From Lachnospiraceae bacterium (GTDB lineage: Bacteria > Bacillota > Clostridia > Lachnospirales > Lachnospiraceae): a DNA stretch of 64,000 nt. Numbering within the stretch: the stretch's first letter is position 1; the number at the start of each line of letters is the position of its first letter. Below the pieces are notes generated by a model that was not told the origin of the DNA, did not search any database, and saw only the letters and a list, made by a program, of their open reading frames with translations. Positions 674-63,340 of this stretch are shown one piece after another. The stretch spans positions 124,001 to 188,000 of the forward strand of contig CAJTDK010000001.1 in assembly GCA_910575105.1 (NCBI GenBank), written 5' to 3'. The position numbers and the translations under genes are program-made.

Positions 674-1297
674 TTAACAAATCTGATCAATAAGCTTTTC
701 TAGTTCAATTTTCTCAAAAACATCATTTAGCATGTTCCTATCATATGTTTTAATATTTTTCAAACTCTGACAGTTCTTACTTAATTTCAAAGCGGCTTCT
801 AATGCGTTTAATTGATATTTTTGTAGCCTTTGATTTTCTTTTCGCTGTTCAAGAAACGCTTCAATCATATCCCAAATATCCTCATTGCTAAAATGCAAAT
901 ATTGTATCAATTCTCTTCTCTTTCTTTTTGTTAATTTGCTCCAAGTGTTATCCATATAAATAAGATTTCTTAAAATTTTTGAAGCTGATAAAAGTTCTCC
1001 TTCTTTATTGAAACATTTGATACCATATATTCTTTGGAATTTTCTGAAATAGTCTTCTATATCATCTGCCGGTATCTCTCTCATTTTTGCGATCTGACAG
1101 TCACACAAATAAACTTGCGTTGCACTGTCAAACATGAGTCCAATTTCCTTTACCACATTTCCATTCTGTAAGTCTTCACGCTTAGAGAACAAAACACCTG
1201 ATATGACTGCTCCTGATGTAAGTGTGACCACATATGGTCTTGATATCTCTAAATCCTCATATTTTACTGTTTCGTTGTTATCTTTGTTTTTACTCAA
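674..1297 (-). CDS. Hypothetical protein with beta-rich N-terminus
   Basis: 207 residues from a TTG start preceded by AAGGAGA. The first 70 residues alternate like a small beta barrel (Sm/LSM- or SH3-like, inferred only from pattern). The remainder is charged and helical, with runs such as KRKRRELIQYL. It follows the gp10-like gene by about 20 bases, so the two are probably co-transcribed. No family is recognised; a phage assembly or chaperone role would be guesswork. Confidence 0.5.
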   Translation of the reverse strand: MSKNKDNNETVKYEDLEISRPYVVTLTSGAVISGVLFSKREDLQNGNVVKEIGLMFDSATQVYLCDCQIAKMREIPADDIEDYFRKFQRIYGIKCFNKEGELLSASKILRNLIYMDNTWSKLTKRKRRELIQYLHFSNEDIWDMIEAFLEQRKENQRLQKYQLNALEAALKLSKNCQSLKNIKTYDRNMLNDVFEKIELEKLIDQIC

Positions 1298-8062: not shown

Positions 8063-8740
8063 TTATATGCCCATGTAGCACCTCCAAATCCATTCATCCA
8101 ACATTTCCTTGTCTACAATCCAAAAACCTAAATATGAGCCAAATAACGACTTTATACGGCACTGTATAGGATAAGCTTTTGCAGGAATACCCGTTTCAAC
8201 TAAATCTTCTAATTCAGGTATCATATTAGCCATTCGCATGTAATTGCTCATTGTCTGTTGTGTTATACCATATGATTCTGCTCTAATTCTTTTTGTGTCG
8301 AAGGATGATTGAAATTTGGCAAATTAAAAAGTTTTTCATTTGCCACTGTGTACTGATTCCCATGATTACCACCTTGTATAAAACCATACCAATTATTTAA
8401 AAATTCGAAACATCTACCGAGTTTAACTGGATTAGTATTACCCAAAACCCTTTGGCGGAGATTAGATTCTATGAGATCCTTAATTTCCTTTTCACCAGAA
8501 CATTACCTTATCATACCTTGCAACAGTACCAGTTCCAACACCTGCCATTTTAGCAAGTTCTTTGTCTGTGTGAGTGCTTTTAACTTTTTCTCCATTTGGA
8601 GAAGAAGTTAAATCTGTGCGAGTGCCTTGTGTTGACTTTGCTTGTTCTTGTATTTTCTTTTTAAACTTGTCCATAACAGCTAATCTTTGGGCGGGTGGAA
8701 GGTTACGTCTACCTAGTTGCGTATTGATCATCCATTCCAA
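8063..8740 (-). pseudogene. Degraded ParB-like/DNA-binding partition protein
   Basis: Three adjacent open segments in different frames join into one protein. The first (8740 to 8492) has MINTQLGRRNLPPAQR and LAKMAGVGTGTVARYDKVM. The next (about 8500 to 8263) has IKDLIESNLRQR and NPVKLGRCFEF. The last (about 8251 to 8160) has MSNYMRMANMIPELEDL. This order is typical of ParB-like replication and partition regulators of Gram-positive mobile elements. At least two frameshifts break it, and the last 40 codons look unrelated. Not functional as it stands. Confidence 0.7.
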
Positions 8741-16493: not shown

Positions 16494-17558
16494 TTATAAA
16501 AATAATAAATCCCTTGTAGATTTTTTCTTTTCCGGTTTCGGTTTTTCAACTGTAATATCTCCCAAAAAGTCAATACTACCCGTCAATCTTCGTTCACTTG
16601 TAGCGGTCAAATTCTTTTTAATTGTCTCTTTATCCTCTTCAATTTTCTTTTTCATTTCTTCCAACCTCTTATATGGAATGGAACAACCTGATATAGCCAA
16701 CACAGTTGCGTCATAATCCCATCCTTCAAAAGTCGCAAATGGTTTTCCGACATTATCAACAATCTCATTAAGACGTACATTGTCATTAGAATTAACTAAT
16801 GCAATATTAGCAACTACTTCATCATCCTCTAACGGCGCATAAATGTTATCTCTTATCTTCTCAATTACTGTTTGAGTTGTGGCTTTATCAGATCCATGCT
16901 TATTGATAATACATGCGCCTCTTTGTGATAAAACGTTTTCAATTTCTGCCCGATCAACTACTCCTCTTGCAGAATTTGTCTCACAATTCAGGAATGCATC
17001 CAAATAACAAGCAAGCTGCTCATTTAAGATAAGTTTGTCCTTATTTCTGTTATTATCAATGATAATTGTTGCACCATTTCCCTCAACAGTTTCTAACTCC
17101 TGGAAAAACTCATAGCAATTCATATATTCTTTTATGCTTGCGTTTTTATCAGGAATACATGTAACCACACATATGATTTTATCTGTTTCAGCTTGCAATC
17201 TCCTTTTAGTGGCCGGTACTATTGCACTTCCGGACCCCCCTCCAGAACTTCCTACAAGGAAAATAACACGACATTCTTTAAACCTTTCTTTAATCTCATT
17301 AATGAGAAGATCAAAATTCTCACAATTATTATCTGCTAATAACTGTTTTGCCTTTCTTCTTTCTTTACTACTCCCATATCCACCTAAAATGTGATATTTA
17401 CATTCTTCAGGTATATTCAGACTATCCAAATCAGATTGAGCCGTATTAGCAGCCATCACAAGATAATCTTTTGCTTGAATACTTTTAATTACGTTACCGC
17501 CCATCTGTCCGAAACCGATAAAACCATACCATTCTTTAATACTCATTGTTACTTCCAT
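16494..17558 (-). CDS. tubZ: TubZ-like tubulin/FtsZ GTPase, plasmid partition
   Basis: 354 residues. The N-terminal YGFIGFGQMGGN matches the first nucleotide-binding loop, and residues 104-111 (SSGGGSGS) replace the classic GGGTGSG tubulin signature. The length and the charged C-terminal tail (KPKPEKKKSTRD) fit TubZ, which forms treadmilling filaments that pull TubR-centromere complexes. The start at 17558, 1 base after the tubR stop region, follows GAGGAAAATTAGA. Type III partition is known from Bacillus plasmids and Clostridium phage-plasmids. Confidence 0.85.
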   Translation of the reverse strand: MEVTMSIKEWYGFIGFGQMGGNVIKSIQAKDYLVMAANTAQSDLDSLNIPEECKYHILGGYGSSKERRKAKQLLADNNCENFDLLINEIKERFKECRVIFLVGSSGGGSGSAIVPATKRRLQAETDKIICVVTCIPDKNASIKEYMNCYEFFQELETVEGNGATIIIDNNRNKDKLILNEQLACYLDAFLNCETNSARGVVDRAEIENVLSQRGACIINKHGSDKATTQTVIEKIRDNIYAPLEDDEVVANIALVNSNDNVRLNEIVDNVGKPFATFEGWDYDATVLAISGCSIPYKRLEEMKKKIEEDKETIKKNLTATSERRLTGSIDFLGDITVEKPKPEKKKSTRDLLFL

Positions 17559-17559
17559 T

Positions 17560-17829
17560 CTAATTTTCCTCCATATCGTCATATTTTTTTAATAGTTCCA
17601 TACCTAACTCATTGATAAAATAACTGTCTGCTCTTTCTACTTTTATACCGGATTCTACTAAATTCCTCTTTTGTAAAATCTTGATATGCTTGTACAATGT
17701 ATTTGGCTTATTTCTTCCCTCTTTCTCTGAAATTTCCGTCACTGTCATACCTCTTATACAATTAGTAGCCTTATTAGTCCGTAAAAGTTTCAAAATTATA
17801 TACTGTGTTCTGACTAATTCATCATTCAT
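17560..17829 (-). CDS. tubR: TubR-like winged-helix partition adaptor
   Basis: 89 residues from ATG 17829 with AAGGTGAT upstream. It is a winged helix (MTVTEISEKEGRNKPNTLYKH then LQKRNLVESG). It directly precedes tubZ, which is the canonical tubRZ order. TubR binds centromere iterons and represses its own operon. The ORF can be extended to 17976, but that part has no ribosome site and non-protein-like sequence. Confidence 0.75.
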   Translation of the reverse strand: MNDELVRTQYIILKLLRTNKATNCIRGMTVTEISEKEGRNKPNTLYKHIKILQKRNLVESGIKVERADSYFINELGMELLKKYDDMEEN

Positions 17830-28798: not shown

Positions 28799-28894
28799 GG
28801 TATTTGCCCTCCTTTTTTTTGACTACCTCCCACCCCTTAACGAGTGGGAACGCTCACGGCTTAAAGCCCTTTTTATAGTTGCCGTGACAACTGT

Positions 28895-36178: not shown

Positions 36179-37456
36179 TTAATCATCAATTTCAATCTTC
36201 CAGTTTATCATAGCTTCATATACCTTATATGGAATTGCATCTTTATATTGTTCTGCCATATCTTTAATAAAATCTTCTTTGTATTCCTTATATCTGTTAA
36301 AAGCCAATTCAGCAGTATCAAATCTTCCTAATTTTATCTGTTTACCCATAAACGACATTGCTGCACGGTATTTCTTTTTATCCTTATCATAATATACGCC
36401 TATAGGGAAATCGCCCCTATCAGCTTTCCTGTCAAGAAATAACGTATTAATTGCATGGGGTACAAAACAACATGTTTCAGAGCTGTATATTTTATTTCCT
36501 TTAAAAAGGATATCCTTATCCAAGTCTAATGGCATACCAGACACCTTATTCTGATCATACCATAACTTAAAATTAGAATAATTCAGCCATTCCTCACAAA
36601 CAGTACAGCCTTTATATTGTGGTTGTCTCTCATGGAATTTTGCATTGTAACAGCGATGGATCATATCATGCCACTTAAAATAAGACTCCGATTTGCAGTC
36701 CACATCTTCACTCCCATGATAACCAATACCGCACATTGTAGGCTTCATTACTCTCCTGCTCCAATCATCAGGCTTAAATCTTATGTCATTCATTACCTTT
36801 AGAATAAATTCTTCGGAATCATCACCCGTTTTATTGAAATGGTTTTTGACAATCCTGTACTGCTCCTGATTCAATGGATAAAGGTTTCTGTAATAACAGT
36901 CCTGCTTGTTAAATCCACCATGCCATATGTAGATATTATTTGCCTTATCAGGATTCACAATAAATTCTTCTACTACTGCTTTTGCTGCATAGAATTGAAC
37001 ACTTTTATAAATCCAGCGCCCTCCGCAAAATACATTCTTTCTTAACGAATATCTCAATGCTCCGTAGTTATCATAACTTCTTTGTAACAGATTATATTTA
37101 CCATTCGAAAATCTGATCACTCTCCCATAATTGGATAACCATGTATCTTTATAGTCCATAAGCTTTACAAATATTTCATCTGTCCCTAATGGAATGAATT
37201 TTAGCTTTGAAATATCCAGTATTCTTTCAGGCTTAATAACCTTATACTGTCTCTTAATTAATATCTCCAGGTCATCCGAAAACTCAATCTTATTCTTTTT
37301 CTCTAAATATTCTCGTTGTCTTTTGTATTCACACTCTTTACATTGATTCAGGTAATACGGATTATTATATTGTCCTTTTATCAAATTAAATTTTTCTATT
37401 GGCATCAGTCTGCCACACTTTTTACATATTTTTGTCTGTGAAATTTCTGTATTCAT
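36179..37456 (-). CDS. HNH/AP2-like homing-type endonuclease
   Basis: 425 residues from ATG 37456. An N-terminal zinc ribbon (CKKCGRLMPIEKF ... CKEC) is followed by a NUMOD4-like segment (WLSNYGRVIRF), an HNH-like core with CxxC (CTVCEEWLNYSNFKLWYD, LDKDILFKGNKIYSSETCCFVP) and a C-terminal AP2-like DNA-binding domain (GVYYDKDKKKYRAAMSFMGK). Typical of free-standing phage homing nucleases. It flanks the structured gene-free region, a common insertion setting. Confidence 0.78.
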   Translation of the reverse strand: MNTEISQTKICKKCGRLMPIEKFNLIKGQYNNPYYLNQCKECEYKRQREYLEKKNKIEFSDDLEILIKRQYKVIKPERILDISKLKFIPLGTDEIFVKLMDYKDTWLSNYGRVIRFSNGKYNLLQRSYDNYGALRYSLRKNVFCGGRWIYKSVQFYAAKAVVEEFIVNPDKANNIYIWHGGFNKQDCYYRNLYPLNQEQYRIVKNHFNKTGDDSEEFILKVMNDIRFKPDDWSRRVMKPTMCGIGYHGSEDVDCKSESYFKWHDMIHRCYNAKFHERQPQYKGCTVCEEWLNYSNFKLWYDQNKVSGMPLDLDKDILFKGNKIYSSETCCFVPHAINTLFLDRKADRGDFPIGVYYDKDKKKYRAAMSFMGKQIKLGRFDTAELAFNRYKEYKEDFIKDMAEQYKDAIPYKVYEAMINWKIEIDD

Positions 37457-37519
37457 TTTTACTTTTATAATTCCTTTCGATATGATAATAGATAACATTC
37501 GCTTATAAACGAACGCTAA

Positions 37520-38560
37520 AAAGAGAATCCTGAAATGGACTCTCTGATATGTTTTTCATATTCAATTGTATGTCGTTCACCCTTCATGGCGATTTCTCAA
37601 TTCTGCGAAACTATGATATAGCGGCACCAAAATGGGAAATATTGACTTCCCCAGCTTGTAGGGGGAAATAATAGAGATATTTTCTAAGCCGTTTGTATCG
37701 GCTTAGGATTAGTCCACGATAGACTAATTCATATGATTGCAGTTGTACCACCGTGGTACAACCTTTTACACACTTCTGTGGAAACTCATCCCCTTATAGG
37801 CGTTGAGTTTAAACCCATCGCTATAGGTAATGCCCATTTGGGCTTATCGTTGAAAACTCAAACGATGCAATCGTTTCGTTCGTCATTAATGAAGAACGGA
37901 ATTATTTTACCTAACACTTTAAACCGTTTGCTTTTTCAATTTTCAGATATTCATACTATACATTTCCGGATGTCCAAAATCGTGACATCCGATTTTTCGG
38001 TTTTACTTTATCAACAGAAATAGAATTTAAAATACTTCCAATATATAGTAACAAATCATTACCCACCTGAAGGAACAAATCGTTCACTCAGCTTATATAT
38101 TCAATCCTACATAATGTCGGATTCAATCTTTCATGCTGCAAGTTTCAAATCATACAAAATGAAGGATTAGAAATCAAAATCAGCCACGGGAATATTCCCT
38201 TCTCCTCTTTCGACCACTTATATGCGAATAGATTAAATCTACCACATTGCTTTTAGAGCAAGATGGTTCAAAACCTGATAACAACCGTACCTATAAGTAC
38301 ACACCAGTTTCCCATGAGGAACCACCGTCTCACGGGTCTATGGTATACGGTAAGATGCAGTATACCTGCTACAGATGTATGCAGCAATTGTGTCATAGTG
38401 TCACAACCCTGTGACCATAGCAGACACACTCTCCACTTTTACGGAATCGGTTTGAACCGAAATCGTAGGATGCAAAATTAAAAAGTTTTTCATTTGCCCA
38501 ATCACAATGAAGGTAACTGACAGTGACCTCCGTTTGCCCCTTCCAATCGGACTAATCGCT
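37520..38560 (-). ncRNA. Large structured noncoding RNA candidate
   Basis: About 1 kb with no supported ORF but dense inverted repeats: 37684-37706, 37708-37728, 37742-37762 (GTTGTACCAC/GTGGTACAAC), 38311-38336, 38342-38366 (GGTATAC/GTATACC), 38368-38385 and 38400-38415 (GTCACA-GGGT-TGTGAC). Stems at 38311 and 38368 contain G-U pairs only if read from the minus strand, where the plus strand would have A-C mismatches. A minus-strand terminator-like hairpin ends it at 37520-37548 (AGAGA.TCC/GGA.TCTCT then TTTT). Size and mobile context resemble ornate large RNAs such as GOLLD or ROOL, but identity is not established. Confidence 0.6.
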
Positions 38561-38575
38561 GAATAACTGTAATCT

Positions 38576-39592
38576 TCAAAAATTGTCATTAGCAGCATCA
38601 GTATTCACATTTCCGCAATCAGAACTACTCTTTACATATAAATAATCATATTTTTGAAAAACATCTTCAGGAACTATCTTGTTAAGAAACTCTTCACCTG
38701 AATAACCTTTTTCTATCGCCTGTTTATATTTCTTTTCATTCTGTTGATTCCTATAATGAACATATCTATGTATACACTTTGTTTCTTTTTCTGGATATTC
38801 CGTACCATATTTAACCATACAATAGTATTTCTGCATAAGTGATCTGCTTTCATTAGCTTTCTTGTCAATAGTTTCTTCTCCAAGTTCAAAGTTTTCCCTG
38901 TTAACAGAAAAGCCAATAATCAATTCTTTATCTTTAAATCTCCCATAATGATTAGGCAGATTCTTTAACTGTCCTTTTTCATCACGTATCATCACGCTAT
39001 GCCTAAAAATATAAATAAGTCTATTATCCTCTAGCAGATGATTATACTTATCATAAGTTGTATAGGAAGTCACACCACAAAGCGAACCAATATAATCATT
39101 AGTCATAAATCCAACAAAATTATTATATGCATTTCCCATTTCATCATAATATGTTGCATTATAGTTTATAGTATTAATCATAGATATGAAATATCTTAAT
39201 ACAGAAAATTTGTCCAATCTACTGTCTAAATTCATAATTTTATGAATTTCTTCTGATGTAACAATAATCAAGAAAATCTTATCATCATTCTCATTGTGAT
39301 GATTATCTATAAACAGATTACTAATATCCAAAATATAGTCTTTCTCATTATTATTGACTACAATTTTTATGTAATTCTTCACAGCTAATTCATTTAACCC
39401 CTTAGACAATCTCTCCGCATACTTACGCCCAATTATAATATCGTCAGTTAAATAAAACGACAATAATTTAATATTGATATAGTATTTGTTGGTATTCAAA
39501 TTCTGCATCATCCTCAATGCTATATATACAGCAATGGCATCAGAAGACAATTCTTTGTTAGTTATAATTTTACTATTTAAAAATATATCCAT
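38576..39592 (-). CDS. Hypothetical protein with winged-helix pattern, possible replication initiator
   Basis: 338 residues. MDIFLNSKIITNKELSSDAIAVYIALRMMQN is a typical N-terminal winged-helix opening in plasmid initiators. A second helical repeat (VTSEEIHKIMN ... VGFMTNDYIGSLCGVTSYTTYDKYN) has helix-turn-helix spacing. The C-terminus is unrecognised. AGGAGGAT upstream. The role in replication is inference. Confidence 0.5.
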   Translation of the reverse strand: MDIFLNSKIITNKELSSDAIAVYIALRMMQNLNTNKYYINIKLLSFYLTDDIIIGRKYAERLSKGLNELAVKNYIKIVVNNNEKDYILDISNLFIDNHHNENDDKIFLIIVTSEEIHKIMNLDSRLDKFSVLRYFISMINTINYNATYYDEMGNAYNNFVGFMTNDYIGSLCGVTSYTTYDKYNHLLEDNRLIYIFRHSVMIRDEKGQLKNLPNHYGRFKDKELIIGFSVNRENFELGEETIDKKANESRSLMQKYYCMVKYGTEYPEKETKCIHRYVHYRNQQNEKKYKQAIEKGYSGEEFLNKIVPEDVFQKYDYLYVKSSSDCGNVNTDAANDNF

Positions 39593-63164: not shown

Positions 63165-63340
63165 CAAATTTGTAATCATATATTACAATAATGGCATAAA
63201 TAAATAGTAGCTATATGGCAAAGGTCGGAAAGGCTCCCGACGCACTCGAGAGAGTACCTGAGATGATGGATACGCCGCCCATCTTGTTGTATAGATAGCT
63301 GTTAAGGGTGCTGCATTATTGGCTGCACCCTTTTTATTAT
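63161..63340 (+). ncRNA. Free-standing small RNA candidate (about 140 nt)
   Basis: Promoter TTGACA (63161-63166), 17-base spacer, TACAAT (63184-63189), start near 63196. Hairpins GTCGG/CCGAC and ACTC-GAGA-GAGT follow. Terminator AAGGGTGC.GC/GCTGCACCCTT then TTTTT (63304-63336). An internal 27-codon ORF (MAKVGKAPDALERVPEMMDT...) has no good ribosome site. Confidence 0.65.

Follow-up and report, generated by a model that had tools for sequence, protein, structure and literature searches.

The sequence analysed here, a 64-kb stretch of a Lachnospiraceae genome referred to throughout as the window, contains on its minus strand a segment (37457-38575) in which we recognise no gene. The segment lies between an upstream open reading frame of 338 amino acids (38576-39592, minus strand) and a downstream gene for an HNH homing endonuclease (36179-37456, minus strand). 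The endonuclease gene specifies 425 amino acids from an ATG (439 from the TTG chosen by the ORF tool), and its product matches PHROG family 953 (E 6.6e-67) with a weak C-terminal AP2 match below the Pfam cut-off. The 338-aa protein is 35% identical to a 452-aa protein at a related locus (L024), which itself has a weak HTH_36 match below the cut-off. Proteins encoded at the corresponding position in L023, L024, L029, L037 and others share a C-terminal tail around IEEILDMPTEGEVQMN; the front part of the L037 protein appears unrelated by eye, as if recombination swaps fronts. In L022 and L025 the RNA is preceded by a short protein with no PHROG match, and in L047, L075 and L079 we find, between a winged-helix-like gene and the RNA, genes that by eye we take to resemble Doc-type toxins or Phd-type antitoxins.

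The element carrying this segment is a prophage. Repressor, terminase, portal and MuF-like genes occupy 42-61 kb of the window; beyond the window there are a tape-measure gene and two integrase genes (integrases at 114988-116292 and 188716-189834 of contig C1). The G+C content steps near 41-42 kb, from about 0.27-0.36 on the left to mostly 0.42-0.51 on the right as far as 60 kb. The wider element has an integrase gene at either end, which together with this step raises the possibility of one prophage nested inside another. A tubulin gene of the TubZ/PhuZ type (16494-17582, minus strand; Pfam Tubulin and TubZ_C_3, PHROG 4733) suggests either plasmid-like partition or a phage cytoskeleton. The window also contains a Pistol self-cleaving ribozyme (RF02679, 64.3 bits) at 28821-28892 on the minus strand, and L045 has one as well (1175-1244, minus strand, 67.4 bits), in both cases downstream of the endonuclease gene and its leader. 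A skipping-rope RNA (RF02924, 66.2 bits) lies at 63214-63291 on the plus strand, ~1.4 kb from the integrase gene past the right end of the window.

Relatives of the segment in other genomes

Annotated phages and plasmids contained no match to the segment. Among 397 genomes of the same family nine had a DNA match, six of which we took as real: the window's own genome, G381, G255, G264 and G273 (much of the RNA), and G176 (3' part alone). The matches in G123, G157 and G016 span just 23-34 nt and were set aside, G123 and one G157 contig having been read and G016 and a second G157 contig compared by BLAST. Viral contigs yielded the relatives L029 and L037; the viral scans gave no convincing similarity in L030, L036 and L038-L042, and two further loci from them (L099, L100) lie outside the analysis.

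Scanning the conserved 3' leader of the segment against ~85,000 species genomes returned 38 loci. Ten of these have the search pattern alone in common and were left out, none of them matching the covariance model R1 described below, while 28 share sequence beyond the pattern, including four that had been found previously (L059 = L023, L062 = L037, L076 = L025, L077 = L024). The hosts of the 28 are mostly Lachnospiraceae, a family to which we take some of the genera to belong, with one labelled Eubacteriaceae and two from one Clostridiales assembly. Adding the window, L022, L026, L029, L093 and L097 gives the 34 loci, all of them with the 3' leader, on which the tallies below are based. L093 and L097 were found through the neighbouring gene, a route that revealed the leader in these two loci and none in L096. 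L051 and L080 are truncated where the stretch or contig ends, and the upstream limit of L052 and L063 was set by hand. None of the RNA motifs occurs in L083 or L084, which contain distant relatives of the upstream protein.

Organisation of the RNA locus

The large structured RNA body extends over 37522-38540 of the minus strand, every part of which is similar to at least three other loci; relatives reach further upstream, and 38540 is a provisional 5' limit. From 5' to 3', the alignments define a 5' module in which a conserved CGATTTCGGTTCAAAC motif is followed by hairpins (38386-38472, minus strand), and then a core module of three hairpins (38275-38367, minus strand) with the motif GTGGGACGGTGGTTCCCCGCG, which is present in 17 of the 34 loci if up to five differences are allowed. 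A variable middle follows, in which hairpins are gained and lost from locus to locus. The 3' domain (37677-37829, minus strand), described by R1, is found in 18 of 34 loci, a count that includes the six on which R1 was trained and two weak matches of 29-30 bits (L056 and L061). Of the 397 family genomes R1 found five, each of which had served to train it, and of 392 in an order-level draw it found one, the window's own. Additional stems seen in the fold lie between the 3' domain and the leader (37577-37669, minus strand).

The leader consists, in 5' to 3' order on the minus strand, of a ACAACTGAATAT-like conserved box (37557-37570; TACAATTGAATATG in the window), a hairpin resembling an intrinsic terminator with its U run (37518-37545), a second hairpin (37493-37518), a conserved ATCGAAAGGAA that is the Shine-Dalgarno region of the endonuclease gene (37471-37481), and the start codon; box and ATCGAAAGGAA were delimited in the leader alignment. 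The first hairpin, already noticed in a preliminary description of this DNA, reads AGAGAGTCC-ATTTCA-GGATTCTCT and then TTTT on the minus strand. It is not among the calls of a simple terminator scan, we think because only four T fall within the counted bases. Covariation across loci amounts to 7 in this hairpin against a null mean of 1.8 (3.5% of simulations as high) and to 19 in the second against a null mean of 6.6 (0.5% of simulations as high). No promoter stands out, the 18 promoter-like sites found comparing with 14.8 ± 3.6 in shuffles.

Core or 3' domain is present in 20 of the 34 loci. The remaining 14 have neither by these two criteria, yet six of them (L026, L045, L058, L074, L080, L093) show similarity to the RNA body on closer comparison. 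We therefore count as loci with little or no RNA body the other eight, seven of which have 0-79 nt of such similarity and one of which has just 97 nt from stop codon to ribosome-binding site; L097, one of these eight, was too short to serve as a query. At the other extreme, the longest relatives (L022, L029, L046, L062, L064, L078) have about 1.7-1.95 kb between genes, most of it shared with other loci, and many, not all, of their 200-nt windows are more stable than 30 shuffled versions. Gain and loss of hairpins as modules is strong when loci are compared.

The 5' part of the RNA contains a 24-nt near-palindrome, GCAAATGAAAAACTTTTTAATTT (38473-38497, minus strand), that is found again in an apparently coding stretch (8319-8343, minus strand), two places including the query itself as against 0.00 expected; similar palindromes are found in L024, L028, L029 and L037. 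We rejected a dispersed repeat as the nature of the segment, which apart from itself has one 24-nt match in its own genome.

Folding and covariation of the RNA body

The preliminary description had read a series of stems from the sequence and had seen in two of them G-U pairs that become A-C mismatches on the plus strand. Both the stems and the asymmetry are present: one such pair each, read by eye, occurs in 38336-38311 (minus strand, CCCGTGAG..CTCATGGG) and in 38385-38368 (minus strand, GCTGCA..TGTAGC), and further stems were confirmed at 37684-37706, 37708-37728 and 37741-37763. The minus strand of 37580-38560 has a folding energy of -294.7 kcal/mol as compared with -245.5 ± 8.7 for shuffles (z -5.7), and the plus strand one of -252.3 kcal/mol (z -5.5), with none of 20 shuffles as stable in either case. 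For nine full-length sequences including the window the consensus energy of the minus strand is -276.1, against -147.0 ± 4.3 in 20 column shuffles, a control that ignores dinucleotides; that of the plus strand is -228.

Comparison with relatives supports individual hairpins. Local helices were folded from the window alone and then scored in the eight other full-length loci, where 1029 of 1297 cells are paired (null 961 ± 15 in 200 simulated alignments) and covariation reaches 137 (null 50 ± 14, with a maximum of 94 in the 200 simulations, the simulated null being a purpose-built approximation). Sliding one side of each helix by 1-3 columns lowered these values to 462-567 paired cells and a covariation of 36-54. 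A reversed-sequence control was discarded as invalid because reversal preserves base pairs. Thus the local helices of the body contain compensatory base changes beyond the phylogenetic null, and covariation among homologues, whose absence the preliminary description had named as refuting, is present for the local hairpins.

Pairs at longer range behave differently. When the whole centroid fold of the window is scored with its long-range pairs, paired cells are not in excess (1202 of 1574; null 1191 ± 24, from the same kind of simulation); double changes are in excess (72; null 40 ± 8), and similarly so in the plus-strand centroid (68 versus 40 ± 8). The consensus fold closes 38465-38456 with 37481-37473, all 72 of 72 cells being paired and none of the changes two-sided. 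Within this helix TTTCGGT (38462-38456) could pair with ATCGAAA in the Shine-Dalgarno region. In the leader alone, an all-pairs covariation test found no significant pair in 19 class A rows, from which the poorly aligned L044 and L076 had been dropped beforehand, and none in 13 class B rows. With covarying local helices, no excess pairing in the whole centroid and a null leader test, the local hairpins of the RNA body are supported and a global fold is not. The initial reading of a large structured RNA is thus borne out by folding energy and by covarying local hairpins, and goes unsupported by long-range pairs and by the all-pairs test of the leader alone.

With regard to strand, local pairs predicted on both strands and read as minus comprise 88 G-U and 36 A-C cells, or 42 and 23 by distinct positions (p 0.025). 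This count is fairer than one from the consensus fold (278 G-U versus 65 A-C), which is biased by the choice of fold. The minus-strand preference first drawn from two stems is supported.

Coding potential

Open reading frames of at least 50 aa in the segment number five, of 96, 72 and 55 aa on the plus strand and 65 and 53 aa on the minus strand; all except the 55-aa frame were compared with relatives. The 96-, 72- and 65-aa frames are mostly interrupted or fragmented there. The 53-aa frame, which crosses the core, is open in L062 and L029 and has stops in L022, L052, L064, L072, L075 and L077. Moreover, the window and L062 are 82% identical across the segment, with nine of 13 gaps not multiples of three and with 57, 62 and 60 substitutions by phase. 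Given frames broken in relatives, gaps out of phase and substitutions spread evenly over the phases, we rejected the segment as protein-coding, a role that these comparisons make unlikely. There is accordingly no long frame inside and none conserved across relatives, in keeping with the original reading. The description of the segment as gene-free holds for its interior; however, it is not isolated, being joined to the leader of the HNH endonuclease gene and varying in length between loci.

The leader and the endonuclease gene

The next gene after the RNA encodes the endonuclease in all seven loci that were found by RNA sequence (the window, L022-L025, L029 and L037, the last being the same locus as L062); L026 is excluded from this count as it was found via a match near the leader. 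Because the leader was itself the query, the association of leader and endonuclease in the genome scan is not independent evidence. With this in mind, the gene after the leader is related by BLAST to the window endonuclease in 31 of the 33 other loci; in L079, where it is a fragment of 120 aa, and in L097 it looks related by eye. In L022 and L026 the gene is broken into two frames. The endonucleases behind the RNA represent several subfamilies, and many of them are just 24-36% identical to the window enzyme.

A leader and endonuclease gene with no more than 79 nt similar to any RNA body occur in eight of 34 loci, indicating that neither requires the body. L073, which is without the RNA, is 97% identical to the RNA-bearing L024 across the leader and the start of the gene, which implies independent movement of the unit; leader and gene follow other sequence also in L065 and near L026, beside genes that by eye resemble insertion-sequence transposases. 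From these comparisons leader and gene seem to move as one unit, and the large RNA would be either an optional upstream part of that unit or a resident sequence next to which it lodges.

By a motif rule the leaders fall into two types, of 21 and 13 loci. The terminator-like and second hairpins recur by eye, with changed sequence, in most of the 34 leaders; L076 seems to be without the terminator hairpin.

Comparison with Rfam and the literature

At the gathering score, Rfam 15 gave no match in the RNA region and two hits elsewhere in the 64-kb window. With the threshold relaxed to E 10 or below, 37300-38800 gave seven hits to snRNA, snoRNA, sRNA and microRNA models, all far below their cut-offs. 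Eight relatives searched at E 1 or below contained one tRNA and microRNA-like hits under the threshold, all of them outside the intergenic RNA, and 18 more searched at the gathering score contained one Pistol ribozyme and one tRNA, both outside it. The models of GOLLD, ROOL, OLE, HEARO and the group I and II introns, the families singled out at the outset, are absent from the hits in the segment (E 10) and in the eight relatives (E 1). In a keyword search of the literature we recognised no description of the window RNA, which may have an earlier name, for example in Weinberg 2017 or the Harris and Breaker review.

Discussion

The minus strand of this Lachnospiraceae prophage carries what we propose to be a member of a previously unclassified family of large structured RNAs, ~1 kb long here and with intergenic spaces of up to about 1.9 kb in relatives, running in the same direction as the adjoining genes. 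The reading that we favour, with a probability of roughly 0.4, is that of a free phage RNA that ends at the terminator, the endonuclease being a passenger behind it that is expressed by read-through. The RNA would be the distal part of a phage transcript and would fold during its synthesis; transcription would mostly stop at the terminator hairpin, releasing a free noncoding RNA, and the endonuclease would be expressed solely from read-through transcripts. The leader hairpins and the Shine-Dalgarno region may hold this expression at a low level or time it. On this view the phage RNA would be the resident, probably with a role of its own in lytic growth, and the endonuclease a mobile passenger that settled behind it.

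We found no RNA locus that is without the endonuclease, an outcome more in line with a leader than with a resident RNA. It is possible, if less probable, that the whole RNA is a giant regulatory leader, the 5' untranslated region of the endonuclease gene, which would set read-through and hide the ribosome-binding site, possibly through pairing of TTTCGGT with ATCGAAA. The endonuclease as next gene in all seven loci found by RNA sequence agrees with this, as does the fully paired helix with which the consensus fold closes 38465-38456 on 37481-37473; however, that helix is without both-sided changes and long-range pairs overall are unsupported. A leader of this kind is also hard to square with the eight of 34 loci where leader and gene have little or no RNA body, and with enzymes behind the RNA that belong to several subfamilies, many 24-36% identical to the window's. 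In PMC3014915, two phage homing endonucleases, I-TevI and the stand-alone mobE from Aeh1, are reported to be translated less because of RNA structure in the initiation region, which would make the last 100 bases a plausible switch whether the RNA is free or a giant leader.

The segment might instead have no RNA function: recombination around a mobile gene for an endonuclease could have piled up intergenic DNA rich in palindromes. In favour of this, loci differ strongly in the hairpin modules that they have gained or lost, both strands fold well, the 24-nt near-palindrome is common to the RNA and the apparently coding stretch at 8321-8344, and the stricter all-pairs test of the leader found no covariation. 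We nonetheless consider this unlikely: the body covaries and is biased towards the minus strand, and the hairpins are not dispersed, one 24-nt match being found elsewhere in the genome.

Rather doubtful is a selfish element composed of giant phage RNA, leader and HNH enzyme, in which the RNA would act with the enzyme on DNA or would sense phage development to release the enzyme. We give little credence to an RNA that, like ARRPOF, would serve in replicating or partitioning a plasmid-like prophage, with the upstream winged-helix-like protein as its partner. In its favour, the preceding gene has a relative whose product weakly matches HTH_36, and the element carries a TubZ-like gene; against it, other genes precede the RNA in relatives (the short protein in L022 and L025, the toxin-antitoxin-like genes seen by eye in L047, L075 and L079). 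Least probable is an RNA partner that binds the HNH enzyme and guides or scaffolds it as HEARO does IsrB. An HNH-type gene does follow the RNA immediately in those RNA loci that were examined, but one enzyme subfamily occurs both with the RNA (L062) and without it (L073), HEARO has no match, and no guide segment was identified.

Few RNA families are known at such a size. GOLLD and ROOL, which form homo-oligomeric cages, are frequently, not obligatorily, found near tRNA islands. According to PMC12286853, the roles of these two phage RNAs are still poorly understood. The window RNA adds a family without detected relation to either, in the genomes of named strains, among them Parablautia and Petralouisia strains, and a defined 3' end, a fixed genetic neighbour and named strains make its expression, its structure and its effect on the endonuclease directly testable.

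Like GOLLD, the window RNA is very large, structured, found in prophages and phages, and better conserved in its 3' part than in its 5' part; like ROOL, it is a large ornate RNA of phages and prophages whose function is undescribed (both as portrayed in PMC12286853). Unlike both, it matches neither covariance model and has no tRNA gene in the 64-kb window, and unlike GOLLD it is linked to an HNH gene. The early suggestion of a GOLLD/ROOL-type RNA, possibly of a new class, accordingly stands as to size, prophage setting and the absence of an Rfam family, and falls short on any match to the GOLLD and ROOL models.

IsrB contains RuvC plus HNH domains. HEARO with IsrB resembles the window in joining a structured RNA to an HNH-encoding ORF; however, there is no match to the HEARO model and the gene in the window is of the PHROG homing type, also found without the RNA. 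The adjacent ORF is not IsrB, its matches being PHROG HNH endonucleases and the weak AP2 domain with no RuvC family among them. The HEARO RNA in PMC12286853 is 343 nt long. The leaders of T4 I-TevI and Aeh1 mobE, like that in the window, have structured RNA where a phage homing endonuclease gene begins; theirs, as presented in PMC3014915, lies at the initiation region, whereas in the window the leader comes after ~1 kb or more of structure. ARRPOF, named for plasmid replication (PMC12641628), is likewise large, structured and tied to mobile elements; it differs in host and gene context, and the window RNA has no match in Rfam 15, which may not hold an ARRPOF model. Compared with these systems, we rate the window RNA as a large, ornate RNA of phages, linked to a homing endonuclease and without detected relation to the named RNAs.
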